From the NCBI GenBank assembly GCA_002686955.1, contig NYZA01000018.1, forward strand, positions 1 to 19,520: a stretch of DNA of 19,520 bases, written 5' to 3'. The translations under genes were made by a program, and so were the position numbers. The notes under the pieces are model-generated. The model had not been told where the DNA came from, searched no databases, and worked only from the letters and a program-made list of their open reading frames with translations. Shown here piece by piece: positions 3,834 to 18,827 of the stretch (its first letter is position 1; each line of letters begins with the position of its first letter). The DNA comes from Gemmatimonadota bacterium (GTDB lineage Bacteria > GCA-2686955).

Positions 3834-4877
3834 TCAGAGCCTCATGTCGAGCTGAACCAACAACTCGTTGTTGTCCACGTCGGTCGACTCTTCATCGTAC
3901 AGGTTGAAGTTGGCCCGGATCGCGATGTGCTCGTTCAGATGGCAATTCGCGCCCAGACTGGACAGCCGCTCCTGGTCACCGGCGGTGTCGCCGTCGGGGT
4001 CGTACTGCTCGTATCGAACCACCACGGTGATGCGGGTGCCGATTTCGTACGACGCCAGCGTGTACCAGCTCCAGGTGCGCAGATCGGAGCCGATTCGTTC
4101 CCGCTGTTGATTGATGTACTCCGACTGGAGAGTCAACTTGGCGGCCGAGATTTCGACCAGTCCCGAAACACGCTCCCTCTTCTTCCCGATCTCTCCCTCG
4201 GCCGGCTGATCGCCGATCATCCAGTAGGCCCCGCCCAATCGCAGATGGCTCAGAGCCGATTCCGTGCCCCTGAAGGGCTGAAAAAGCACCCTGGCCAGCC
4301 GGTCCTTGGCGTCGTTGTCATCGCCGGTGTTGATCCCGGCCCCATTGAAGGCGCCCAACGCATAGCGGCACCTGCCGCCGAGAAGATCACCGCCGAGCGC
4401 GAACCCAACATCCCTCGAAGAGATCCTCGGGCTGTCCGTGGGGCTGCCCGGATGGGTCCCGTAGATCCTTGGACCGCGGACCGTTTTCTGCCCCGGTGCC
4501 GCGTTGGCGAATGCCAGTCCCGCGGCCGAGAAGGGCACCTTGAACTGGCCGACGGTCAGGTTGAACCGCTCGTCCGGGGAATAGCACAGAAAAGCATCCC
4601 AAACCGAATTGCGGGGTACACTGTACAGAAGTTTGTACGTCGCGGTGGGAGCCAGTCTACCGGCAAGGGAGAGCTTCATCTCCTTGACGTCGATAGCATC
4701 GAATGTGCCGGCAGCGTCAGATGCGCCGTAGCGAAAGAAGCCCGTACACCCAATGTGGGTATCGGTGCCTCCGCTCGTGATCTGATTGTCGACATCTTCC
4801 TAGGCCGCGAAGGTCAACGAAGGGTTGCCGACAGCAGCGAAGGCCACCATGGCCGCGGCCAGGAATTAGTATCTCAC
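3834..4877 (-). CDS. OprP/OprO-like (phosphate-selective type) porin, interrupted by UAA and UAG in its signal peptide
   Basis: The C-terminal 281 residues are an outer-membrane porin barrel of the OprO/OprP type, with LSLAGRLAPTATYKLLYS, the hallmark GQFKVPFS, DVGFALGGDLLGG, YALGAFNGAG and a final LLVQLDMRL. The same frame extends upstream through GFFRYGASDAAGTFDAIDV and a typical signal peptide (FLAAAMVAFAAVGNPSLTFAA). It reaches a GTG at 4877 that overlaps the preceding stop as GTGA and has an AAAGGAG ribosome site seven bases before it. Two stops interrupt this leader: TAA at codon 4 (4868-4866) and TAG at codon 26 (4802-4800), just after the predicted AxA cleavage site. Each is one C-to-T change from Gln. 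The restored protein would be 347 residues. A start at ATG 4679 would lack the export signal and first strands. The gene may be inactivated, suppressed or mis-assembled. OprP relatives pass anions. Confidence 0.75.
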
Positions 4878-6634
4878 AGTTGCTCTCCTTTCAACACGAC
4901 CGATAGTTCCCCCATCAGCCTCAACATCTCCTCGGCCGGCACGAAGTCGACCACTCGGAGCTCGTGGCGCTCCTTTCCCTGATCGTCCAGCATGACCAGC
5001 GTCGGAACACCTCTCACATCATATTGCCTCAACAGACGATCGTGCAACGGAATGTCGCCACCGGTGACATCGACCTTGATCATCACCAGCTCCTTGGAGG
5101 CCTCCACCACCTTCGAATCATGAAATGTGTCGGCTTCGAGCCTGCGGCACGGGGTGCACCAAGCGGCCGAGAAGTCGATGATCACGGGCCTCCCCTCTTC
5201 GCCCGCCCGCACGAGAAGCTCATCGGAATAGTGTTGCCAGTCGACCCCTGGACCCATCACCGCCCATGCGGTGATCAAATGCGCGCCGAGCACCACACCC
5301 ACCGCCCCCAGGCCTCGCCTGAGCCACGCGAAGCTGCGAAAGCCGGTTTCGGTCCGGTCGAGCCAACCGATCCGAGCCCCGGCAACCAAGGCTACCGTCG
5401 CGATCAGCAGGAGCCCGAAGGGTTCCGGCAGAATCGGCCGCACGAAGTAGGCGGCCATCCCCACCAGAAGCCAGCCCATCACACGGCGCACCCAGAGCAT
5501 CCACTCCCCCGAGCGCGGCAGACGATCGAGCCGACCCGAAGAGATCGCAAGCACGAAGAGTGGCAGCCCCAGGCCCAGGCTGAGAACGAAGAACACCACG
5601 AAACCGAACCAGGCGCTGCCGCTATTGGCCACCAGCGCCAGCAGCCCGATGACGAAAGGCCCGATGCACGGCGCCGCCACGACTCCCAGGGCCAGCCCCA
5701 TGAACAGACTGCCGAAATAGCCGCCGTGGGAACGGGCCGCCACCTGCGTCAACCCGCTCGGCATGCGCATCTCCCAGAGCCCGAAAAGGCTGGTCGCGAG
5801 AGCGAACAAGATCGCCGCCATCCCCGCCAGAACGAAGGGACTCTGCAGCAAAGCCCCCATCATGCCGCCAGTGAGCCCGGCCACAACACCCAGCGTGGAG
5901 TTGGTGATCACCAACCCGGCCAGATAGCAAATTCCATGGACCACCAGGCGCCCCTTCGATTTGCCCGCCCGCCCGCCGAAGTATGAGACAGTAATTGGAA
6001 TCAGTGGGTACACGCAAGGGGTCAGGTTGAGAGCAAGCCCACCCACGAACACCGCCACCAAAGCAATCGGCAGAGCCCATCCGAATACCGGCATGGGTGT
6101 CGCGTCCTGCTCCGCCCCGGACGCTACAGTTGTGCTCGCCACCGGCAGACTTCGCTCCCGCCAATCGGGAAAGCCCTCTGGGTAGCGATAGACCCTTTCG
6201 TATCCCAATCCCACGGCCACACGGGCCGCCGAGTCGCTACGGACTCAAGTGAAACCCGCTCAGTAAAATGCAATCAGCGCATCGGAATGCGGTTTCAACA
6301 GTTCGTCGATCTTGCCGCGAGCACGCCACCTCGCCCACCAGGTCGGCTCCATCGAGAAGTGCAGCGAACCGGGGATGTGGCCGGTGCGATGTTCCCATCC
6401 CTGCCGTGTGTCGACCAGCACGACCCCTTCCGGATCGGCCTTCATTCTGCTCACGAGCTCATCGGCTTCGATCAACCCGTAACCCCCCTCGCGCGCCTCT
6501 TGCTCCAGCTTCGCCTGCTGCTCAGGCGTCGCATCGGCGGTCGCGCGCCCGGCCCCAACAAGCAACACCGTCATGAACGCCAACGTGGCGAGCAACCGAT
6601 TTCGCGCCGGCGACACCCTTTTCCACGAAATCAT
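4874..6634 (-). CDS. selenocysteine-containing rhodanese-DsbD-thioredoxin fusion (two in-frame UGA codons)
   Basis: Read through UGA at codons 125 (6262-6260) and 130 (6247-6245), one frame encodes 586 residues. A signal or membrane anchor (LLATLAFMTVLLVGAG, 14-29) leads into a periplasmic rhodanese domain (about 50-165: VVLVDTRQGWEHRTGHIPGS, then FY-U-AGFT-U-VRSDSAARVAVGLGY and YPEGFPDW). Relatives have FYCNGPxCxRS here, so both UGAs replace cysteines. A DsbD transmembrane domain (about 180-470) carries its two electron-transfer cysteines, LTPC207VYP and APC323IGP. A C-terminal thioredoxin domain has WC493TPC496 and the cis-proline GVPT (542-545). The normal DsbD alpha domain is absent and the rhodanese takes its place. 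The ATG at 6634 overlaps the yeeE stop (TGATG) and has an AGGA site. It probably moves electrons from the cytoplasm to a periplasmic Se/S-transferase centre. Without recoding it would be two truncated proteins. Confidence 0.85.
6214..6228 (-). promoter_or_regulatory. candidate bacterial SECIS hairpin for the second rhodanese UGA
   Basis: CGGCC and GGCCG form a five-base-pair stem around a CGUGU loop. The loop begins after 21 intervening bases downstream of the UGA at 6247-6245, within the spacing known for bacterial SECIS elements, and contains GU. In GC-rich DNA a stem this short can arise by chance. Confidence 0.45.
6231..6246 (-). promoter_or_regulatory. candidate bacterial SECIS hairpin for the first rhodanese UGA
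   Basis: GAGUC pairs with GACUC around a CGUAGC loop, and two U-G wobbles extend the stem (6248-6229). The loop begins after 18 intervening bases downstream of the UGA at 6262-6260 and contains GU. The second UGA codon lies inside the 5' arm of this hairpin, so decoding the first UGA would happen with the second still folded. Confidence 0.5.
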
Positions 6635-7644
6635 CACGACATTCCTATCTCGGCAGAAGAAGCCGACACCGGCTCGGAATCCTGCCGCAAGCGCTGGAGC
6701 AAGGGAACGATCCAACTCCCCAGCATCGCCGCGGGGACGAAAAGTAGAGCACCGGGCGCCAGCAGCGGTGTGGCGCGCAAGCCCAACCCAACCGTGCACC
6801 CCGCCGCTAGCGCCCCGCCGAGACCCAGCCCCACACCACCGGCGAAGGCGCCGCCCAACTTTCGCGGCGATGCCTTCGACCATTTGAAGCGCCCCTCGAC
6901 CCTCGCGGCCACGTGGGCCCCCAGCGTGATCGTCACCACCAGAACCGTGGCGGCGTTCAAACGGGCCGGAGCCGCGCCCAACACAGCCTCGAACCAAGCG
7001 ACGTTTCCAGGAATGATCGCCAAGGCGAAGCCACGCCCGTCGACACCCGCCAACAGCCAGGCGCTGATCCCGGCCGCTCCGATCACAATTCCGGTGCGCC
7101 GCCAGGTCCAGGCTCCTTTCGCCGTGGCTGAGGGCGCCAGGCGACCGGCCACGACAAACAACAGCAAAGCCGCCGGCAGAGCCACCATCCACAACGGTTG
7201 CCCCGCTAGGCTTGGCACTACCGCCTGCGGCACCGGCGCGGCGGCGCTCCCTCCCGCGAGATGAACGATCGACCCGATCGACACCGTGAAGCCAAGAACC
7301 GCGGCGATACAAGCGACACTTCCCTCGCCGACATGCTGCCACACACCGGCGCTACACCCCCCAGCCGGCGCCATGGCAACGCCGAAAATCAGCCCCCCCA
7401 GCAGCGCCCGCCCGGCATCGAATCCGATCCCTGGAAGAGACAACCATCCAGCGGCCGCCAGCAAGGGCAGCACCGCTATCTGAACCGCAACCGCCAACCA
7501 CAAAGTGTGGAACTTGTCGAATCGCCTCCTGACCAGGAGGTCCCGGAAACCGGAATTCAGTCAGAATCGGCATCGGCTCGCGGCGTAACCGTACGCGAAC
7601 CCGAGAAGGCCTCCCGAGAGCAAGGCGAGGCTGGTGTGTGACAT
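6634..7644 (-). CDS. YeeE/YedE-family sulfur (or selenium) compound permease with selenocysteine codon 28
   Basis: Read through a UGA at codon 28 (7563-7561), the frame encodes 336 residues of a multi-spanning YeeE/YedE permease. The N-terminus MSHTSLALLSGGLLGFAYGY leads into RCRF-U-LNSGFRDLL, where relatives have RFC followed by FRD. The other two family cysteines remain as cysteine: PAGGC97SAG and AAGC283TVG. In the thiosulfate importer YeeE three cysteines at equivalent places line the transport path. The start is ATG 7644 with AAGGA seven bases upstream, 15 bases after the ArsR remnant. The next gene overlaps its stop. Reading only the part after the UGA would lose the first helix and its key residue. 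The substrate could be thiosulfate, another sulfane compound, or a selenium compound, since YedE relatives are linked to selenium metabolism. Confidence 0.85.
7525..7540 (-). promoter_or_regulatory. candidate bacterial SECIS hairpin in yeeE
   Basis: A perfect six-base-pair stem, CCUCCU with AGGAGG, closes a four-base loop GGUC. The loop begins after 26 intervening bases downstream of the UGA at 7563-7561. A GGUC apical loop is the SelB-recognised feature of the E. coli fdhF SECIS. Position, stem and loop all fit. Confidence 0.65.
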
Positions 7645-7658
7645 GGTGAGGTCCTTCG

Positions 7659-7841
7659 CTACAACTTCTTCGTCGTGCAGCAGGTGGGTGAGGGCGCCTC
7701 CGCCGTCGGTTTCTTGTCGAGCACTGCAACGAGATCGGCGACGCAGAGCGGTTCCCCCTCCGCGGCCAGCCGGGCGATGATCCGTAGCCGTGTCGGATGG
7801 GCGATCACGCGCAGCAGCTAGGCTTTGGCTTCGACGTCCAT
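7659..7841 (-). pseudogene. ArsR-family regulator remnant (nonsense codon and probable internal deletion)
   Basis: The frame from ATG 7841 reads MDVEAKA, TAG (7820-7818), then LLRVIAHPTRLRIIARLA and EGEPLCVADLVAVL, a clear ArsR N-terminus (compare MDVEALAQLFRALADPTRLRIL). It then jumps to DKKPTAEAPSPTCCTTKKL and a TAG stop. That ending looks like a Cys-Cys tail of an ArsR-type protein, while the recognition helix (normally SQPTVSRHL-like) and dimerisation helix are missing. The remnant is about 60 residues against about 100-120 for the family. The TAG at codon 8 is one C-to-T change from CAG (Gln), which fits the family at that position. Its place at the head of the operon suggests it once controlled the permease and rhodanese genes. 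A functional short form starting at a downstream GTG is unlikely because DNA-binding residues are gone. Confidence 0.65.
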
Positions 7842-10099: not shown

Positions 10100-10362
10100 G
10101 TGGAACTTCCGACGGACTCGGCGGGCGAGCCCTCACCGCCTGCGGCGCTGCCTGGGCGAGCGGCGCGAGACTACCCCAACCCTCCGCGTCCACACTATTG
10201 AATCTCCCCCCCCGCACCCCCTACTGTCCCAGTCTCCTCGGGCCATCTCCCGTCGGGAACCGAAGCGCCGCGAAGCGCGTAGATCCGGGGATGTCCGCGC
10301 CCCGGGAAGGGCCGCGGCGCCCTTCCAATCCCAGCAAACCGCAGGAAAACCCCCAGCATCTC

Positions 10363-11349
10363 ATGGACGCACGAATAATCGAGCTGAACCGCCGCATCGA
10401 AGAAGAGAGCCAGTTCACCCGCGCGCTGGTCGAAGAGATCCGCCGCGCCATCGTCGGGCAAGACCATATGGTCGAGCGGCTCATTGTCGGCCTGCTGGCG
10501 GGTGGGCACGTCCTTCTCGAAGGGGGCCCCGGCCTGGCCAAGACCCTCACCGTTCACACCCTCGCCCGCGCGATCGACGCCGGATTCCAGCGAATCCAGT
10601 TCACCCCCGATCTGCTCCCGGCCGACCTGATCGGCACCCTCGTCTACGATCCCCGTGGCGGCACCTTTACCCCCCGCAAGGGACCGATCTTCGGCCACAT
10701 CATCCTAGCCGACGAGATCAATCGCGCCCCGGCCAAGGTCCAGTCCGCCCTCCTCGAGGCGATGCAGGAGCATCAGGTCACGATCGGTGATACGACCTAC
10801 CCGCTGGACGAACCCTTCCTCGTGCTCGCCACCCAGAACCCGATCGAGCAGGAGGGTACCTATCCGCTCCCCGAAGCGCAGGTCGACCGATTCATGCTCA
10901 AGCTCGAGGTCACCTACCCTTCGAAGGAAGAGGAGCGCCGCGTCCTCGAGCTGATGGGGGTCGATCAGCCGATCGAGATCAGCGCCATCGTCCACCCCGA
11001 CCAGATCCTCTCCGCCCGAAACACCGTGAACGAGGTGTATGTCGACGACAAGGTGAAGGACTATATCGTCGACCTCGTGCAGGCGACCCGCAGCCCCGAC
11101 GAGTACGGAATCGAAATCTCGCGACTGGTCGAATATGGCGCCTCGCCCCGCGCCACCCTCTACCTGCTCCGCGCCGCTCGCGCCCTCGCCTTCCTGCGCG
11201 GCCGCGGCTACGTCACCCCCGAAGACATCAAGTCGGTGGCACCCGACGTGCTGCGCCACCGGGTCATCGTCACCTACGAGGCCGAGGCCGAAGAGATCGA
11301 CGCCGCCGCCATCGTCGGGCGCGTCCTCGACGAGGTGCCCGTGCCGTGA
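10363..11349 (+). CDS. MoxR-family AAA+ ATPase
   Basis: From ATG 10363 the product has 328 residues. It contains Walker A GGPGLAKT (54-61), Walker B IILADEIN (113-120), sensor 1 LATQNP (155-160) and the EAQVDRF arginine-finger region (171-177), followed by the MoxR lid domain (PRATLYLLRAARALAFLRGR, VTPEDIKSVAPDVLRHR). MoxR ATPases act as chaperones that activate VWA-domain partners, and this one heads a Bat operon. An upstream ATG at 10291 is in frame, but the added residues are Pro/Arg-rich and unlike the family, so 10363 is preferred. No strong ribosome site is visible right before either start. The stop overlaps the next start (GTGA). Confidence 0.93.
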   Translation: MDARIIELNRRIEEESQFTRALVEEIRRAIVGQDHMVERLIVGLLAGGHVLLEGGPGLAKTLTVHTLARAIDAGFQRIQFTPDLLPADLIGTLVYDPRGGTFTPRKGPIFGHIILADEINRAPAKVQSALLEAMQEHQVTIGDTTYPLDEPFLVLATQNPIEQEGTYPLPEAQVDRFMLKLEVTYPSKEEERRVLELMGVDQPIEISAIVHPDQILSARNTVNEVYVDDKVKDYIVDLVQATRSPDEYGIEISRLVEYGASPRATLYLLRAARALAFLRGRGYVTPEDIKSVAPDVLRHRVIVTYEAEAEEIDAAAIVGRVLDEVPVP

Positions 11350-12317
11350 GTCTGCTCCGCGGGATCCGCGACCGAATCCTGCCTCCGCCACCCTCCTCCG
11401 ACTCCGCCGCCACCGATCCCAGCGACGCCCCGATCACGGAGGAGCTGCTGGCCTCAGTGCGCCGCATCGAGATCCGTACGCGCACCCTCGTGCACGACCT
11501 CTTCGGCGGCCAGTACCACTCCGTCTTCAAGGGATTGGGGATGGAGTTCGCCGAGGTGCGCGAGTACGTCCCCGGCGACGACGTCCGCGCGATCGACTGG
11601 AACGTCACCGCCCGCACCGGCACACCCCATATCAAACGCTTCGACGAGGAGCGCGAGCTCACCGTCCATTTTCTCTTCGACGCCTCGATGTCGGGCGCCT
11701 ACACCAGCCGGGACCGCTTCAAGCGCGAGATCGGCGCCGAGATCGTCGCCTTGCTCGCCTTCAGCGCCATCAGCAACAACGACAAGGTGGGACTCGGCAT
11801 CTTCACCGACCGAATGGAGCTCTTCGTCCCCCCGCGCAAAGGACGCCGCCACGTCCTCCGTCTCGTCCGCGAGGTCCTCGCCTTCCACCCCGAGCACCGC
11901 GGATCGGACCTCAGCGTCCCCCTCGACCACACCCTGCTCGCTCTGCGCCGCCGCTCCGCCATCTTCGTTCTCTCCGACTTCGCCGGCGCCGATTTCGATC
12001 GCTCGCTGAAGGTGCTCGCCCGCAAGCACGACGTCATCCCGATTGTGCTCTCCGACCCGCGAGAGCACGAGCTGGCCGACGCGGGGATCGTCATCGTCGA
12101 AGATCTCGAAAGCGGCCGCCGCCACGCCGTCGATACCTCCGATCCGCGCACCCGCGCCCGCTACGGCGAGCAGGCCCGCCGCCGTGTCCAACGCCTCCAA
12201 GAGCTCTTCCGTTCGGCGGGCGTTGATCCGATCGCGGTCTCGACCGATGGGGACCACGTCGAAGCGCTGATCCGCTTCTTCAAGCTGCGAGCGCGGCGCA
12301 GGGCGGGGGGGCGATGA
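11346..12317 (+). CDS. DUF58 protein with VWA-like domain
   Basis: This 323-residue protein begins at GTG 11346, four bases inside the MoxR gene. It contains the DUF58 signature GMEFAEVREYVPGDDVRAID (65-84), then DWNVTARTG and IKRFDEERE. A VWA-like fold follows with the metal-site motif DASMS (112-116) and FVLSDFAG further on. DUF58 proteins almost always sit next to moxR and are thought to be the ATPase's partner or adaptor. No transmembrane segment is apparent, so it is probably cytoplasmic or peripheral. The end overlaps the next start as ATGA. Confidence 0.93.
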   Translation: MSLLRGIRDRILPPPPSSDSAATDPSDAPITEELLASVRRIEIRTRTLVHDLFGGQYHSVFKGLGMEFAEVREYVPGDDVRAIDWNVTARTGTPHIKRFDEERELTVHFLFDASMSGAYTSRDRFKREIGAEIVALLAFSAISNNDKVGLGIFTDRMELFVPPRKGRRHVLRLVREVLAFHPEHRGSDLSVPLDHTLLALRRRSAIFVLSDFAGADFDRSLKVLARKHDVIPIVLSDPREHELADAGIVIVEDLESGRRHAVDTSDPRTRARYGEQARRRVQRLQELFRSAGVDPIAVSTDGDHVEALIRFFKLRARRRAGGR

Positions 12318-13351
12318 TGTCGATCGCTTTCGCCGCGCTTCTGGTGGCCGCGGGTCTGGGGATTGGGGACGAATCGCCGCTTCCAGAGCCAGTGGCCACC
12401 GCTGTCCTGGACACCAGCGCCACCCTCCCCGGCTGCCCCGTCCGCCTGTCCATCGGTGTCCAGCACCAGCCTGGCTTCGTTCCCGATTTCCCCGATCCGG
12501 AGGGCGATCCCTTCCCCGGGTTCTCGATTCGGGGAGCGAAACGGGCCGAGCCCGAGGTCATGGACAATGGCCAAACCATCAGCCGAATCGAGTACAGGCT
12601 CGTCTCTCACCTCCTCGACTCGACCCTCGTGATCCCGCAGCTCCCGATCGACCTGCTGCCCGCCGATAGCACCGCCCGTGCGGGCTTCGCCCTCACCGAT
12701 CCCCTGGCGGTGCACATCGGATCGAGCATCTCCGCCGACGAGCTCGAAGCCGCCGAGTTGAGACCGGAGCGACCCCCGGTGCCGATCCCTCCACCGGTCC
12801 CCTGGGGGCGGATCGCTCTTGCCGCCATCGCGGGCGCACTCGTGGCCTGGCTACTCTGGCGCTGGTGGAAGCGGCGCCGCGCGAAAGAAGCGCCCGAATC
12901 GGTCTTCGCGTCGTTCGAGCCGCCTCGGCCCGCCCACGAGATCGCACTCGAAGAGATCGAAGCCCTCGGCGCATCGGAGATCGCCCGCGAGGGCCCCGCG
13001 AAACGCTTCTACACCGAGGCCTGCGATATCTTGCGCCGCTACTTCGACGGCCGCTTCGGTGTCGACGCACCCGATCTGACCAGCGAAGAGCTGATCGGTG
13101 CGCTCGAGCAAGAGAGCTTGTCCGGTCGTGTCCGGAGCTTGGTGAGGAACGCGTTGCGGGAGGCCGACCTGGTCAAGTTCGCGCGTCTCGATCCCGCCTG
13201 GTCGGAATGGGGGGGGGTTCTGGACCGCGCGCGAGAGATCGTGCATTCGACCACCCCGGTGCCCGAACCCGAGGTGACCGATCCGCCCCACTTCGGTTCC
13301 GACGGAGCTCTGCCCGCCCATCCGGCCGGCGCGGAGGAAGACGATGCCTGA
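12314..13351 (+). CDS. single-pass membrane protein of the Bat operon (DUF4381-like)
   Basis: This 345-residue protein has an N-terminal signal-like stretch (SIAFAALLVAAGLGIG). A periplasmic beta-rich domain follows (about 20-160, with the TLPGCPVRLSIGVQHQPGF region resembling the start of BatD-type Ig domains). One transmembrane helix covers about 164-184 (IALAAIAGALVAWLLWRWW). A cytoplasmic helical domain (about 210-320) carries PAKRFYTEACDILRRYFDGR and DLTSEELIGALEQE. This layout matches the DUF4381-type protein found between DUF58 and batA in many Bat operons. Its molecular role is not established. The gene overlaps batA by eight bases (ATGCCTGA). Confidence 0.8.
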   Translation: MMSIAFAALLVAAGLGIGDESPLPEPVATAVLDTSATLPGCPVRLSIGVQHQPGFVPDFPDPEGDPFPGFSIRGAKRAEPEVMDNGQTISRIEYRLVSHLLDSTLVIPQLPIDLLPADSTARAGFALTDPLAVHIGSSISADELEAAELRPERPPVPIPPPVPWGRIALAAIAGALVAWLLWRWWKRRRAKEAPESVFASFEPPRPAHEIALEEIEALGASEIAREGPAKRFYTEACDILRRYFDGRFGVDAPDLTSEELIGALEQESLSGRVRSLVRNALREADLVKFARLDPAWSEWGGVLDRAREIVHSTTPVPEPEVTDPPHFGSDGALPAHPAGAEEDDA

Positions 13352-14345
13352 GAACGTCTTCCGCTTCGAATCGCCCTGGATTCTGCTCGGGCTGCTCGTC
13401 CTCCCGATCCTCGGCGCCTGGCTCTTCGTGGTCGCCCCTGGGCGCCGCCCAGCGATCCGCTTCCCCCGCGTTTCGGAGCTGCTCGAAATCGAGCCTTCGG
13501 CCGTCCAGTCGGTGCACTGGCTGCCTAGCGCCCTTCGGATGGCCGTCCTGGCGCTCCTGCTCCTCGCCGCCGCGCGCCCCCAGACCGGCAAGCGTGTCTC
13601 CACGGTGCTCACCGAGGGGATCGATATCGTAGTCGCTCTCGATGTGAGCCGCTCGATGCTCGCCGAGGATTTCAAGCCTCGCAATCGGCTGCACGTGGCG
13701 AAACAGACGATCGGGCGGTTCATCCGCGGCCGCCGGAACGATCGGATCGGCCTGGTGGTTTTCGCGGGCCGCGCCTACACGCAGTGCCCCCTCACGACCG
13801 ACTACGGCGTGCTGCAGTCGCTGCTGCAAGAGATCGAGGTGGGCATGCTCGAAGATCCGACCGCGATCGGAACCGCCATCGCCACGTCGAGCGCCCGTCT
13901 CAAGGACACCGAGGCGATCTCGAAGGTCGTGATCCTGGTGACCGACGGGCGGAGCAACGCCGGCTCGATCGATCCGCTGACCGCCGCGGAGCTCGCCTCG
14001 GCCGTTGGGGTAAAGGTCTACACCGTCGGCGTTGGACGCGAAGGACTCGTGGACTATCCCGATCCTCGGATGCGCGGCGGGTACACACAGATCGAGTCCG
14101 ATATCGACGAAGAGGCCCTCGCCACCATAGCCAAACGAACGGAGGGCGCGTTCTTCCGCGCACACGATCCGGAAGCCCTCGACGGCATCTTCGAGCGGAT
14201 CGACGAGATGGAGAAGACGAAGCGGGAGACGAAGGACTACACCCGCTACCGTGAGATCTTCCTGCTTCCGGCCGCTTTGGCTCTGCTCCTGCTGCTGCTC
14301 GAGCGCGGGCTCTCCGCGACGCGATTTCGAACGGTACCGGGCTGA
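13344..14345 (+). CDS. batA: BatA-type VWA-domain membrane protein
   Basis: This 333-residue protein shows two N-terminal transmembrane helices (about 10-32 and 62-78), a periplasmic or cytoplasmic-face VWA domain and a C-terminal helix (about 308-322, FLLPAALALLLLLLERG). The VWA metal site is complete: DVSRS (100-104), the central threonine region GTAIATS and VILVTDGRSNAG. The preceding motif PQTGKRVSTVLTEGIDIVVALD is typical of BatA/BatB. Bat proteins (Bacteroides aerotolerance) support survival under oxidative or envelope stress and are thought to be remodelled by MoxR. The symbol follows gene order and domain layout. The stop overlaps the next start as TGATG. Confidence 0.9.
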   Translation: MPENVFRFESPWILLGLLVLPILGAWLFVVAPGRRPAIRFPRVSELLEIEPSAVQSVHWLPSALRMAVLALLLLAAARPQTGKRVSTVLTEGIDIVVALDVSRSMLAEDFKPRNRLHVAKQTIGRFIRGRRNDRIGLVVFAGRAYTQCPLTTDYGVLQSLLQEIEVGMLEDPTAIGTAIATSSARLKDTEAISKVVILVTDGRSNAGSIDPLTAAELASAVGVKVYTVGVGREGLVDYPDPRMRGGYTQIESDIDEEALATIAKRTEGAFFRAHDPEALDGIFERIDEMEKTKRETKDYTRYREIFLLPAALALLLLLLERGLSATRFRTVPG

Positions 14346-16081
14346 TGAGACTAGCGATTCCCTGGCTTCTGGTCCTGATCCTGCCGGCCTTCGTGCTGCT
14401 GCGCGTTTTTCGCGCGCGGCGCCTCAGGGCGGTTGAGACAGGGCGCGTGCTGATGGCCGGTAGCCGGCTCGGCGAGCTCGCCCCAGGGCTGGCCGACGGT
14501 CGTGCACGTTGGAAAGGGCTCTTGGTCGCGATGGCGACCCTCTTCGTGATCGGTGCGATGGCAAGGCCGCAGTTCGGCACCCGCTTCACTCAGGTGAAGA
14601 AGGAGGGGATCGACATCGTCTTCGCCATCGACACCTCGCTCTCGATGACCGCGGAGGATCTTCGGCCGAGCCGTCTGGAACGGGCGCGGCTCGAAATCGA
14701 AGCTCTGCTTCCCAGGCTGGGGGGCAATCGAGTGGGGATCGTGGCCTTCGCGGGGGCGGCCTTCGTCCAATGCCCGCTCACACTCGACCACGGAGCGTTG
14801 CGCCTTTTCCTCGACGCGCTCTCGCCCGACCTGATCCCGCGCCCGGGGACCGACGTGGCGGCGGCGATTCGAAAAGCGATCCGCTCCTTCCCCTCGGACA
14901 ATGTCGCGTCTCGGGTCGTCGTGCTCCTGAGCGACGGAGAGGGCTTCGAGGGCGATGCCGAGAAGGCGGCGGACGCGGCGGACGAGCAGGGCATCGCGAT
15001 CCACGCGGTCGGCATCGGCAGCCCCGAGGGGGAGCCGATCCCCGAATACGATTCGACCGGCGCCAAGATCGGCTACAAGAAGAACGGCGATGGCCAGACG
15101 ATCATGTCGAGGCTTGATGAGGCGACCCTATCGCGGGTCGCGCTGGCCACGGGGGGGCGGTACTATCGCGTGTCGGGCGGCGGCTTCGCGCTCGATGAGG
15201 TGATGAACGAAATCGCTGCCATGACGCGGAAAGAGACTGAGAGTCGATTCGTCGCGGAGTACGAAGAACGGTTCCAGCTGCCGCTCCTGGTGGCGGTGTT
15301 GCTTCTGATCGTTGATGCGGGCATCGTGTTGGCGCGCCGATCGGTGGTGGGCGCGCTCCTTATCGTGCTCCTGGTGACCGGCGTCTCGCCCGCGCGGGGC
15401 CAGGAGGCCAGCGAGATCGGAGCCGAGGGAGACCGCCTTTACCAGGAAGGGGACTTCGAGGGGGCGCTAAACGCCTACAAGCAGGCTGCGATCGACGAAC
15501 CGGAGCGGGCCGATCTGGAGTTCAACGTGGGCACGGCGCTCTTCAAGCTGGGCAGGACCGACGAGGCCGCGCACAAGCTCGAGCGGGCGGCGGAGAAGGC
15601 TACCGAAGAGCCAACGATCGAACGGAACGCTCACTACAATCGGGGCGTCACCAGGATGGCCGCCCAGCAGTTCGATGCGGCGGTCGATGCCTTCCAGTCG
15701 GCACTCGACATCGATCCCGGCGACGGCGACGCCCTCTTCAATCTCGAGCTGGCATTGCGGAAACTCCAGGAGCAGCAGGAACAGGAGGAGGAGCAGCAGC
15801 AGGAACAGGAGGAGGAGCAGGAGAAGCAAGACCAGGAACAGCAGAACCAGGAAGAAGAGGAAGAGGAGCAGGAGGAGGAAGAGCGGCAGGAAGAGCAAGA
15901 GGGAGAGGAAGAGGGGGACGAGGAGGAACCCGCCCCCCAGCCTGAAAGCGATTCTCTTCAGGTCGATCCACAGTTGGCGGAGCAGATTCTCGATGCGATC
16001 GCCGAGGACGAGGAGGACTTGCACAAGCAACGAGCCCGCTGGGCGATCCCGGCCAGCGACATGCCGGAGAAAGATTGGTGA
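14345..16081 (+). CDS. BatB-BatC fusion: VWA-domain plus TPR membrane protein
   Basis: This 578-residue protein joins two normally separate Bat proteins. Residues 1-330 are BatB-like: helices at about 5-20 and 58-72, a VWA domain with DTSLS (96-100), FAGAAFVQCPLT and VVVLLSDGEGFEG, and a helix at about 312-330. After a second hydrophobic stretch (335-350, resembling a signal peptide of BatC) comes a BatC-like TPR region (356-470: GDRLYQEGDFEGALNAYKQA, NRGVTRMAAQQFDAAVDAFQ). A Glu/Gln-rich segment (about 475-528) follows, then an acidic tail ending ASDMPEKDW. The TPR part is expected in the periplasm. The two modules are in one uninterrupted frame with no stop or frameshift. Confidence 0.9.
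   Translation: MRLAIPWLLVLILPAFVLLRVFRARRLRAVETGRVLMAGSRLGELAPGLADGRARWKGLLVAMATLFVIGAMARPQFGTRFTQVKKEGIDIVFAIDTSLSMTAEDLRPSRLERARLEIEALLPRLGGNRVGIVAFAGAAFVQCPLTLDHGALRLFLDALSPDLIPRPGTDVAAAIRKAIRSFPSDNVASRVVVLLSDGEGFEGDAEKAADAADEQGIAIHAVGIGSPEGEPIPEYDSTGAKIGYKKNGDGQTIMSRLDEATLSRVALATGGRYYRVSGGGFALDEVMNEIAAMTRKETESRFVAEYEERFQLPLLVAVLLLIVDAGIVLARRSVVGALLIVLLVTGVSPARGQEASEIGAEGDRLYQEGDFEGALNAYKQAAIDEPERADLEFNVGTALFKLGRTDEAAHKLERAAEKATEEPTIERNAHYNRGVTRMAAQQFDAAVDAFQSALDIDPGDGDALFNLELALRKLQEQQEQEEEQQQEQEEEQEKQDQEQQNQEEEEEEQEEEERQEEQEGEEEGDEEEPAPQPESDSLQVDPQLAEQILDAIAEDEEDLHKQRARWAIPASDMPEKDW
15767..15928 (+). repeat. Glu/Gln codon-rich low-complexity tract inside batB-batC
   Basis: About 54 codons are almost entirely GAG, GAA and CAG/CAA, encoding a flexible acidic linker. 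Such linkers are common after the TPRs of BatC. The tract is purine-rich (A/G) on the coding strand and could be length-variable by slippage. Confidence 0.8.
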
Positions 16082-18018
16082 TCGTGGCGGAGAGAAGAGG
16101 CGATGAGCGGCGGAGCAGATGGGGAGAAGGCATTGGGCGCGCATGCTCCGTGCGCGTGCTCCCAGTCCTTCTCCTGATCCTCGTGCTGATGGAGGGCAGC
16201 GCCTGGGGAGCCACGATCAGCGCCCGGGTCGAAGCCGAAACGGTCGGGATCGACGACCTCGCCCAGCTCGAGGTCACGGTGGCATCTGGAACAACGGGTG
16301 CTCTGGCGACACCGAGGCTCCCGGCGCTCGACGGTTGGAGCGTGGTGAGCACGGGATCGTCCCGCAACATGAGCTTCGTCAACGGAACACTCGAGACCTC
16401 GGTCACCTACACCTACAAGCTCCGCCCACTGCGAAAAGGGCAGCTTTCGATCCCGCCCATCGAGGTCGAAATGGGGGGAGAGAAGCTCGCCACCGATCCG
16501 ATTCCGATCACGGTCAAAGAGGGGAGCATCGTCACCAAGCGGCAACGGCGGCGGCGGAGCTTGTTGGATGATCCCTTCGGACGCGACCCCTTCGCCGGGC
16601 GCCGGACCCGATCGCGAGAGCGGGAGATCGACCCGTACGAGCATGCCGAAGTCGAGACCCTAGTGGACCGCAACGAGGCGGTCGTCGGGGAGCAGATCGT
16701 TTTGGCCTTCCGGCTGGCCACGTCGCCCTATATCCGCTTCGACAGGCAACCGCTCTATACCGCGCCCGAAGTGGAGGGAGCCTGGGTCGAGGCGCTGGGG
16801 GAGCAGACCCGACGGACCGAAATCCGGGCGGGAGTCGAGTGGGAGGTCTTGGAGATCCTCTACGCGGTCTTCCCGACCCAGCCGGGCACGATCGAGGTGG
16901 GTCCGGCCAAGCTCGACGGCGTAGTGAACGCGGGCTCCATGGACATCTTCTCGATGATGCGCCGCACCGGCCGGCGGCTGATTCTCGAGACCGAGCCGAT
17001 CGCGATCGTGGCCAATCCTCTTCCCGATGAAGGTCGCCCCGCCGACTTCAGGGGAGCGGTGGGCAGCTACCGGGTGCGGGCGGGCTTCGATAGGGAGCAG
17101 GGCACGGCCAACGATCCGATGACCCTGACGATCGAGGTGAGCGGCGAGGGGAATCTCAATACCGTTCCGGAACCGGAGCTTCCGGAGGTGGATGGGCTGC
17201 GTTTCTTCGAAGCGCAGAGTGAAGTGGAGCTCGTTCCGAAGGGGAAGATCCTGACCGGTCGACGGATCTTCACCCGCTTGGTCGTTCCAGAGAACGCGGG
17301 AACCATCATATTTCCCGAGCTCGATCTGAGCTTCTACGACCCCTCGCGCAGCCGTTTCAGAACGATGCACACCAACGCCGTTCGACTCGAGATTCTGCCT
17401 GACGATTCCGCGGTGGAGGGCGGGCCGATCGTGGCCGGGCTCTCGAAAGAGGAGGTGAAGCGGCTCAAGAGTGAAATCGAGTACATCCGCACTGAAGTGG
17501 CGAGCATCGAGCATCAGGGGGCGCGGGGCTATCGCGACCCCGCCTTCTGGGGGCTCGCGGCGCTGCCGCTGGTGGCGATCTCCGGAGCCCTTGGGTTGAG
17601 GAGGCGCAGGCACCGCCTGGCCACCGATTCCGGATACGCCCGTTCGAGCCGGGCGATGAAGCGACTGCGGCCGAGGCTGGAGGAGCTCCGTAGCGTGCCT
17701 CGAGGGAGCAGCGATGGGTGGGCCTTCGCGAGCCGGATCCTGCTGGACTATCTGGGCGACAAGCTGAATCTGAATGCGGCCGGGCTCACGACCGAAGAGG
17801 CGGTGGTGGTGTTGCGCGCTTCGGAGCTGCCCGATGAAGTAGTGGCCGAAATCCGTGAGTTCCTGACCTCTTGCGATCTGGCCCGTTACGCGTCGGCATC
17901 GATCGACGCATCGACTGGGGACCTGATCGAGCGAGTGCGATCGATCGCGCGAAGGGTTGAAAAGCCTGAGGGGTCGGTGAGTGGAAAGAGGACCGAGACC
18001 AGCGGGAGGAGGCTGTGA
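16078..18018 (+). CDS. batD: BatD-type oxygen-tolerance membrane protein
   Basis: This is a protein of about 646 residues. A hydrophobic export signal (VRVLPVLLLILVLMEGSAWGA, about residues 26-46) precedes several Ig-like beta domains typical of BatD (EAETVGIDDLAQLEVTV, PRLPALDGWSVVSTGSS, YTYKLRPLRKGQLSIPPIEV, ANDPMTLTIEVSGEGNL). It then has one transmembrane helix (about 485-500, FWGLAALPLVAISGALGL), and a C-terminal cytoplasmic helical domain. The GTG at 16078 overlaps the upstream stop (GTGA) and has GGAG eight bases before it; TTG 16075 is one codon earlier. The charged 25-residue stretch before the signal is long, so a later GTG (16150) could be the true start. BatD is presumed to scaffold the Bat complex in the inner membrane. 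Confidence 0.9.
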   Translation: MIVAERRGDERRSRWGEGIGRACSVRVLPVLLLILVLMEGSAWGATISARVEAETVGIDDLAQLEVTVASGTTGALATPRLPALDGWSVVSTGSSRNMSFVNGTLETSVTYTYKLRPLRKGQLSIPPIEVEMGGEKLATDPIPITVKEGSIVTKRQRRRRSLLDDPFGRDPFAGRRTRSREREIDPYEHAEVETLVDRNEAVVGEQIVLAFRLATSPYIRFDRQPLYTAPEVEGAWVEALGEQTRRTEIRAGVEWEVLEILYAVFPTQPGTIEVGPAKLDGVVNAGSMDIFSMMRRTGRRLILETEPIAIVANPLPDEGRPADFRGAVGSYRVRAGFDREQGTANDPMTLTIEVSGEGNLNTVPEPELPEVDGLRFFEAQSEVELVPKGKILTGRRIFTRLVVPENAGTIIFPELDLSFYDPSRSRFRTMHTNAVRLEILPDDSAVEGGPIVAGLSKEEVKRLKSEIEYIRTEVASIEHQGARGYRDPAFWGLAALPLVAISGALGLRRRRHRLATDSGYARSSRAMKRLRPRLEELRSVPRGSSDGWAFASRILLDYLGDKLNLNAAGLTTEEAVVVLRASELPDEVVAEIREFLTSCDLARYASASIDASTGDLIERVRSIARRVEKPEGSVSGKRTETSGRRL

Positions 18019-18827
18019 TGGGCGCTCGAATCTGGATCGCGGTCTCCGCGTCGCTTCTTCTTCTGACCGGGGCGGCTTTACCGGTTCCGCGGGACGCGCT
18101 TCGAACCGACGAGCAGCCGATCGAAATCCAGCGTCTCTTCGAGTTGGGCAACGCGGCCTACGGCGAAGGCGATTTCCAAGGGGCGATCGCGTTCTACGGA
18201 GCGATCGTCGAGGCGGGTATCGACAACGGAACGGTGCTTTTCAACTTGGGCAACGCCTATCACCGGAGCGGCGACCTCGGCCGGGCGATCCTCAGCTACG
18301 AGCGTGCCAGGCGGCTGATTCCACGCGACCGGGATCTGCGTGAGAACCTCGCCTATCTCGAAGTGCTCAAGCGAGATAGAGATGCCGAGGCCGATTCGGC
18401 GCCGGCGGTGCGCGCGGTGCACCGAGTCGTGCGAGGAGTCACGGTGGAAGAGATCGCCTGGGCATCGCTCGGCCTATGGGTGATGCTCGGGCTCCTGTTG
18501 GCTCTGCGGACCGTGACCGGCGGCGACCATCGGGGCGCTCGCTCCCTGAAGATCGCCATGATCTCGCTCTCGGTTTTGCTCTTCGGATCGCTGGCCCACA
18601 CGGCACTTCTCCTGGCTGAGGAAACACGGAACGATGCGATCGTTTTGGCGGAAGAGATCGCGATCCGTTCCGGCCCCTCCGAAGGCGATGTCACGGAATT
18701 CAAGCTGCACGCCGGCACGAAAGTGCGGCTGGGGCGGCGCTCCGGGGACTGGGTGCAGGTCGCCCTATCGGAGGAGCTGCGCGGGTGGTGCCGGGCGGGG
18801 GCGGTGGAGGGGATCGGCGTCGACTGA
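18018..18827 (+). CDS. batE: BatE-type TPR/SH3 membrane protein
   Basis: This is a 269-residue protein. A signal peptide (WIAVSASLLLLTGAALPVP) is followed by TPRs (about 35-120: RLFELGNAAYGEGDFQGAIAFY, NLGNAYHRSGDLGRAILSYERA), and then two transmembrane helices (about 146-166 and 176-198). A C-terminal bacterial SH3-like domain reads AIRSGPSEGDVTEFKLHAGT and GDWVQVALSEELRGWC. This order matches BatE, the usual last gene of the operon. The ATG at 18018 overlaps the batD stop (TGATG) and has GGAGG upstream; a GTG one codon earlier (18015) is possible. It is probably the operon's end. Confidence 0.88.
   Translation: MGARIWIAVSASLLLLTGAALPVPRDALRTDEQPIEIQRLFELGNAAYGEGDFQGAIAFYGAIVEAGIDNGTVLFNLGNAYHRSGDLGRAILSYERARRLIPRDRDLRENLAYLEVLKRDRDAEADSAPAVRAVHRVVRGVTVEEIAWASLGLWVMLGLLLALRTVTGGDHRGARSLKIAMISLSVLLFGSLAHTALLLAEETRNDAIVLAEEIAIRSGPSEGDVTEFKLHAGTKVRLGRRSGDWVQVALSEELRGWCRAGAVEGIGVD

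Follow-up and report, generated by a model that had tools for sequence, protein, structure and literature searches.

A TsoB-family rhodanese/DsbD fusion with two predicted selenocysteines beside a TsuA/YeeE-like transporter gene in a Gemmatimonadota bacterium

The window (the whole stretch of 19,520 nucleotides that was analysed, from contig NYZA01000018.1) carries on its minus strand two genes that overlap by one base (TGATG): a TsuA/YeeE-like transporter gene, whose frame starts at ATG 7644, and, directly downstream of it, tsoB. The frame of tsoB extends over 586 codons from ATG 6634 to a terminal UGA (4876-4874) and contains only two internal stops, both of which are UGA (6262-6260 and 6247-6245). 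The gene, its internal UGAs and its domains are located as follows:

4874..6634, minus strand: tsoB, predicted rhodanese/DsbD/thioredoxin fusion selenoprotein of 586 aa (translation and NF045694 match)
6155..6466, minus strand: rhodanese domain, predicted periplasmic, in the position of DsbD alpha (Pfam PF00581)
6260..6262, minus strand: UGA codon 125, predicted Sec125, on the catalytic Cys of rhodaneses (the Cys of FYC, alignments with PDB rhodaneses)
6245..6247, minus strand: UGA codon 130, predicted Sec130, within two residues inserted into the rhodanese loop; Cys in paralogue L002
5429..6064, minus strand: DsbD/CcdA transmembrane domain with Cys207 and Cys323 (Pfam PF02683)
4985..5242, minus strand: thioredoxin-like (DsbD gamma) domain, WCTPC, with Cys493 and Cys496 (Pfam PF13899)

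Pfam matches of the tsoB frame, computed with UGA read as Cys, were obtained for Rhodanese (E 2.4e-11, spanning both UGAs), DsbD_TM (E 1.4e-42) and Thioredoxin_7 (E 2.9e-14), and the N-terminus is signal-peptide-like. Among PDB entries, the thioredoxin-like domain matches DsbD gamma (4ip1, 1uc7). Thus, the rhodanese loop recognised in the original prediction stands, but a description of the protein as a rhodanese was incomplete, as it is a rhodanese-DsbD-thioredoxin fusion. TsoB shares with DsbD (NF001419/PRK00293) the transmembrane and gamma thioredoxin domains and all four relay cysteines (Cys207, Cys323, Cys493, and Cys496), which are invariant in 17/17 aligned sequences. It differs at the N-terminus, where TsoB has a rhodanese and DsbD has its alpha domain; the remaining DsbD relatives examined likewise carry a DsbD-alpha-like domain at this position. 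The DsbD model NF001419 matches from residue 187 only, with 241.3 bits against a cutoff of 330. Given the 17-sequence alignment, AlphaFold produced a model of the transmembrane and thioredoxin parts; the rhodanese part stayed unfolded (pLDDT ~30), because most alignment rows carry another N-terminal domain.

Over its whole length, the protein belongs to a family that has been named. NCBIfam NF045694, the "rhodanese/DsbD fusion-like selenoprotein TsoB", matches with 850.9 bits (cutoff 805), residues 19-577 aligning to positions 10-571 of the 572-position model, and the corresponding profile match on the genome contains 2 TGA inside. According to a 2026 review (PMC13188914), whose TsoB entry is credited to Haft & Tolstoy 2025, TsoB is rhodanese form 5 with a UxxxxU motif and two Sec, and Tso stands for "three selenoprotein operon". 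The protein of the window scores above the family cutoff, has UxxxxU at codons 125/130, and places the rhodanese before the DsbD-like part; match length, domain order, and the presence of two Sec in the motif are all those of TsoB. It therefore adds one more member to a known selenoprotein family and is not a new type of active site, which cannot be claimed because the TsoB family already has a curated model. The original prediction, which knew of no loop with both positions replaced, is corrected on this point by the TsoB entry of the review. Single-Sec rhodanese selenoproteins (forms 1-4 in PMC13188914; NF041203, LYCAU) share with TsoB a rhodanese fold with Sec but have one Sec rather than two, and NF041203 scores 22.7 on TsoB against a cutoff of 115.

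The loop peptide reads ...ALIAFY-U-AGFT-U-VRSDSAARVAVGLGYERVYRYPEGFPDW... In comparison with solved rhodaneses (6mxv, 2hhg, 3d1p, and 1e0c), codon 125 falls on the active-site Cys and codon 130 within the two-residue loop insertion. The genome has a paralogous rhodanese (G000:C66, L002) that reads VVYCNGGDCPDS, and both UGAs of tsoB align with its cysteines; a copy of this paralogue in the sole other sampled genome of the phylum (L056) also has Cys at both positions. The chance that two stops would fall on exactly these 2 of the 586 codons is P ~6e-6, which bears out the earlier argument that random nonsense is unlikely to strike just the two cysteines. Indeed, the frame and the domain match agree with the earlier description of two UGAs within one continuous frame at both cysteines of the loop.

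TsoB was found above the cutoff in 2/386 sampled genomes, namely that of the window and G286, which belongs to a different phylum; each of the two phyla is represented in the sample by only two genomes. The G286 protein is 55% identical to that of the window and keeps both UGAs. The proposed alignment of homologues at the two codons has thus yielded Cys in the paralogue and UGA in a homologue from another phylum. A search of genome contigs for further TsoB sequences returned a DsbD relative only, and a search of plasmids gave no full-length match. In G286, the next gene downstream of tsoB is TsoC (NEPQGKPU; 136.8 bits, cutoff 45), whereas neither TsoC nor TsoA was found here and tsoB instead follows the TsuA-like gene with its putative Sec. 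The models of TsoA/TsoC (NF045695, NF045708) had no match in the window's own genome, which is 84.5% complete, nor in the control genomes, and the motifs LULAxC and NEPxGxxU do not occur in the window.

The host genome, a draft of 4.28 Mb in 270 contigs, encodes the machinery required for decoding UGA as Sec. The search for selA, selB, selC, and selD suggested at the outset recovered SelA (434 bits), SelD (322 bits), SelB (359 bits when the neighbouring stretch is counted in), and a tRNA-Sec with anticodon UCA (tca; 76.9 bits), so that the genome does not lack the Sec system whose absence would have spoken against the original prediction. A general reassignment of UGA to a sense codon was also considered and is not likely, as tsoB and the upstream gene both terminate in UGA and the tRNA-Sec is a dedicated one. 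As a separate observation, the SelD gene of the host (L059, contig C248) has an in-frame UGA of its own (PAGG-U-ARKLGAKD), which makes SelD itself a selenoprotein candidate; this UGA is followed by a seven-pair hairpin (AGGACCU-GGUCG-AGGUCCU) whose loop, GGUCG, lies 26 nt after it.

Each of the two UGAs of tsoB is followed by a SECIS-like hairpin:

6222..6258, minus strand: putative bSECIS for UGA125, a lower stem plus UUGAGUC-CGUAGC-GACUCGG (consensus fold of the window and G286)
6213..6229, minus strand: putative bSECIS for UGA130, GCGGCC-CGUGU-GGCCGU (fold of the window and G286)

The interval marked in the original prediction ended at 6214, close to the end of the second hairpin at 6213. 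The bSECIS model in PMC13188914 specifies a loop of 3-9 nt with G in one of its first two positions, a stem of 4-16 bp, a spacing of 16-37 nt, and an MFE <= -7.5. In loop, stem, spacing, and G position, both hairpins fit this model. The loop of the first begins 19 nt after UGA125 (18 nt between), with G at loop position 2 followed by U, and that of the second begins 22 nt after UGA130 (21 nt between), with G at loop position 2. The energy of hairpin 2 (-10.2) is within the limit of the model, whereas hairpin 1 alone (-6.3 kcal/mol) is weaker than -7.5 but reaches ~-16 together with its lower stem. When the single sequence was folded, the energy downstream of the UGAs was not stronger than that of shuffles. 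In the comparison with G286, three differences in fold 1 each turn a U-G pair into a C-G pair, and the sole synonymous change in hairpin 2 sits in the loop, where GU becomes GG and the model accepts either. Between these two sequences, no two-sided compensatory changes were seen in the folds. Where the two proteins have the same amino acid, the codon is shared in 41% of cases, and over codons 131-137 it is shared in 7/7 (P ~0.002, for one region chosen for its place). As support, not proof, this comparison of two RNAs favours two SECIS-like hairpins.

Hairpin 2 shares sequence with the 3' arm of the lower stem in fold 1, and the two folds cannot form completely together; a succession of folds is therefore conceivable. 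The same overlap lends some weight to the idea that only one UGA is decoded as Sec and that the other specifies a different residue or mostly terminates translation, and Sec insertion twice within five codons is expected to be inefficient. Nonetheless, the conservation of both UGAs between phyla, together with a hairpin at a suitable distance after each, leaves decoding of a single UGA improbable. Less probable still is a pseudogene or an assembly error, in which a Cys-containing rhodanese-DsbD gene would have suffered two nonsense mutations or would contain miscalled bases. The genome is indeed a fragmented draft, and neighbouring genes seem damaged, with in-frame TAG/TAA in the remnant of an ArsR-like gene and at a porin 5' end. 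However, the stops are confined to the two Cys columns of the loop in an otherwise intact frame, and the genome has a full Sec system; above all, both UGAs occur again at these codons in another phylum, which is the ground for rejecting this explanation. The output of automatic calling with table 11, in which the rhodanese is cut short at the first UGA and GTG 6220 opens a separate, DsbD-like protein, is equally improbable, as GTG 6220 lies inside the rhodanese domain past the catalytic loop and conservation is unbroken across the UGAs in both the TsoB model and G286. It is thus very probable that the protein is TsoB and that both of its in-frame UGAs specify selenocysteine, as the original prediction of a double-Sec loop had proposed; the Sec machinery, the Cys/Sec pairing at both sites, the conservation across phyla, and the SECIS-like hairpins all point in this direction.

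The gene upstream of tsoB presents a similar feature:

6634..7644, minus strand: TsuA/YeeE-like transporter gene (PF04143, E 5e-37, matched downstream of the UGA)
7561..7563, minus strand: in-frame UGA (codon 28 of the TsuA-like gene), which pairs in the alignment with Cys22 of Spirochaeta thermophila TsuA (6leo chain A)

With the family match and an in-frame UGA at the conserved Cys22 of the TsuA/YeeE thiosulfate transporter, this gene probably encodes a selenoprotein as well, judging from the alignment. Calling with table 11 starts the gene at 7503 and thereby loses the UGA. Model NF052577 matches the protein below its cutoff (E 2e-31), and the cutoffs of the TsuA models were not reached. 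PMC13188914 already includes YeeE/YedE proteins with Sec, for which it gives the motif GUxSG, compared with FULNSG here. The hairpin that follows the UGA of the TsuA-like gene (loop UCCU) does not fit the consensus loop of bSECIS. In the reviewed literature, a comparison outside which the original Tso neighbourhoods lie, no description was found of either a TsuA-like neighbour or the hairpin pair of tsoB.

The domain order, from which alone both the substrate and the electron route are read, suggests how TsoB may work. With a rhodanese in place of DsbD alpha, electrons from the cytoplasm would reduce a periplasmic sulfur compound via the Sec pair. As in DsbD, they would pass from cytoplasmic thioredoxin to the transmembrane Cys pair, then to the CxxC of the gamma domain, and finally to the N-terminal periplasmic rhodanese. 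There, a sulfane donor, e.g., thiosulfate or a persulfide, could pass its sulfur (or selenium) to Sec125; Sec130 would resolve the adduct on Sec125, with release of sulfide and formation of a diselenide. The Sec125-Sec130 diselenide would in turn be reduced by the gamma domain. As the most economical interpretation, we give about even chances to such a DsbD electron relay that ends in a periplasmic selenium rhodanese and reduces a sulfane substrate. That the exact substrate is thiosulfate or a persulfide, as proposed because of the TsuA-like transporter next door, is held with less assurance.

The TsuA-like transporter with its putative Sec would bring sulfur compounds of this pathway into the cell, and two adjacent SECIS-like hairpins, forming in turn, would help to decode both UGAs. 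A fuller scheme can be drawn from these elements: a two-gene, selenium-dependent sulfur module in which a transporter of the thiosulfate type, carrying Sec in place of Cys22, is co-transcribed with a double-Sec TsoB that acts on sulfane sulfur in the periplasm as a reductase, and in which overlapping, mutually exclusive SECIS elements switch decoding from UGA125 to UGA130 as the ribosome advances. Taken as a whole, this scheme is speculative and rather doubtful. The locus places a known but uncharacterised double-Sec family in another lineage, beside a probable selenoprotein that may transport sulfur compounds, and this neighbour points to thiosulfate or a persulfide as a candidate substrate. 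Two close UGAs with adjacent hairpins would also offer a compact natural case of successive Sec insertion.

Several other features of the window may be mentioned. Just upstream of the transporter gene, at ~7650-7841 on the minus strand, there is a remnant of an ArsR-type regulator (MDVEAKA*LLRVIAHPTRLRII) with a weak Pfam HTH_20 match, an in-frame TAG (7820-7818), and an apparent frame shift. On the other side of tsoB, two in-frame stops precede a porin-like frame (3834-4679, minus strand): a TAG (4800-4802) immediately behind a stretch that resembles a signal peptide (NPSLTFAA*EDVDNQ), and a TAA (4866-4868) ahead of that stretch; the 5' end of this porin gene looks broken. Finally, on the plus strand, a run of genes from 10198 to 18827, as judged from ORF translations only, resembles a MoxR ATPase/DUF58/von Willebrand (Bat-like) cluster.
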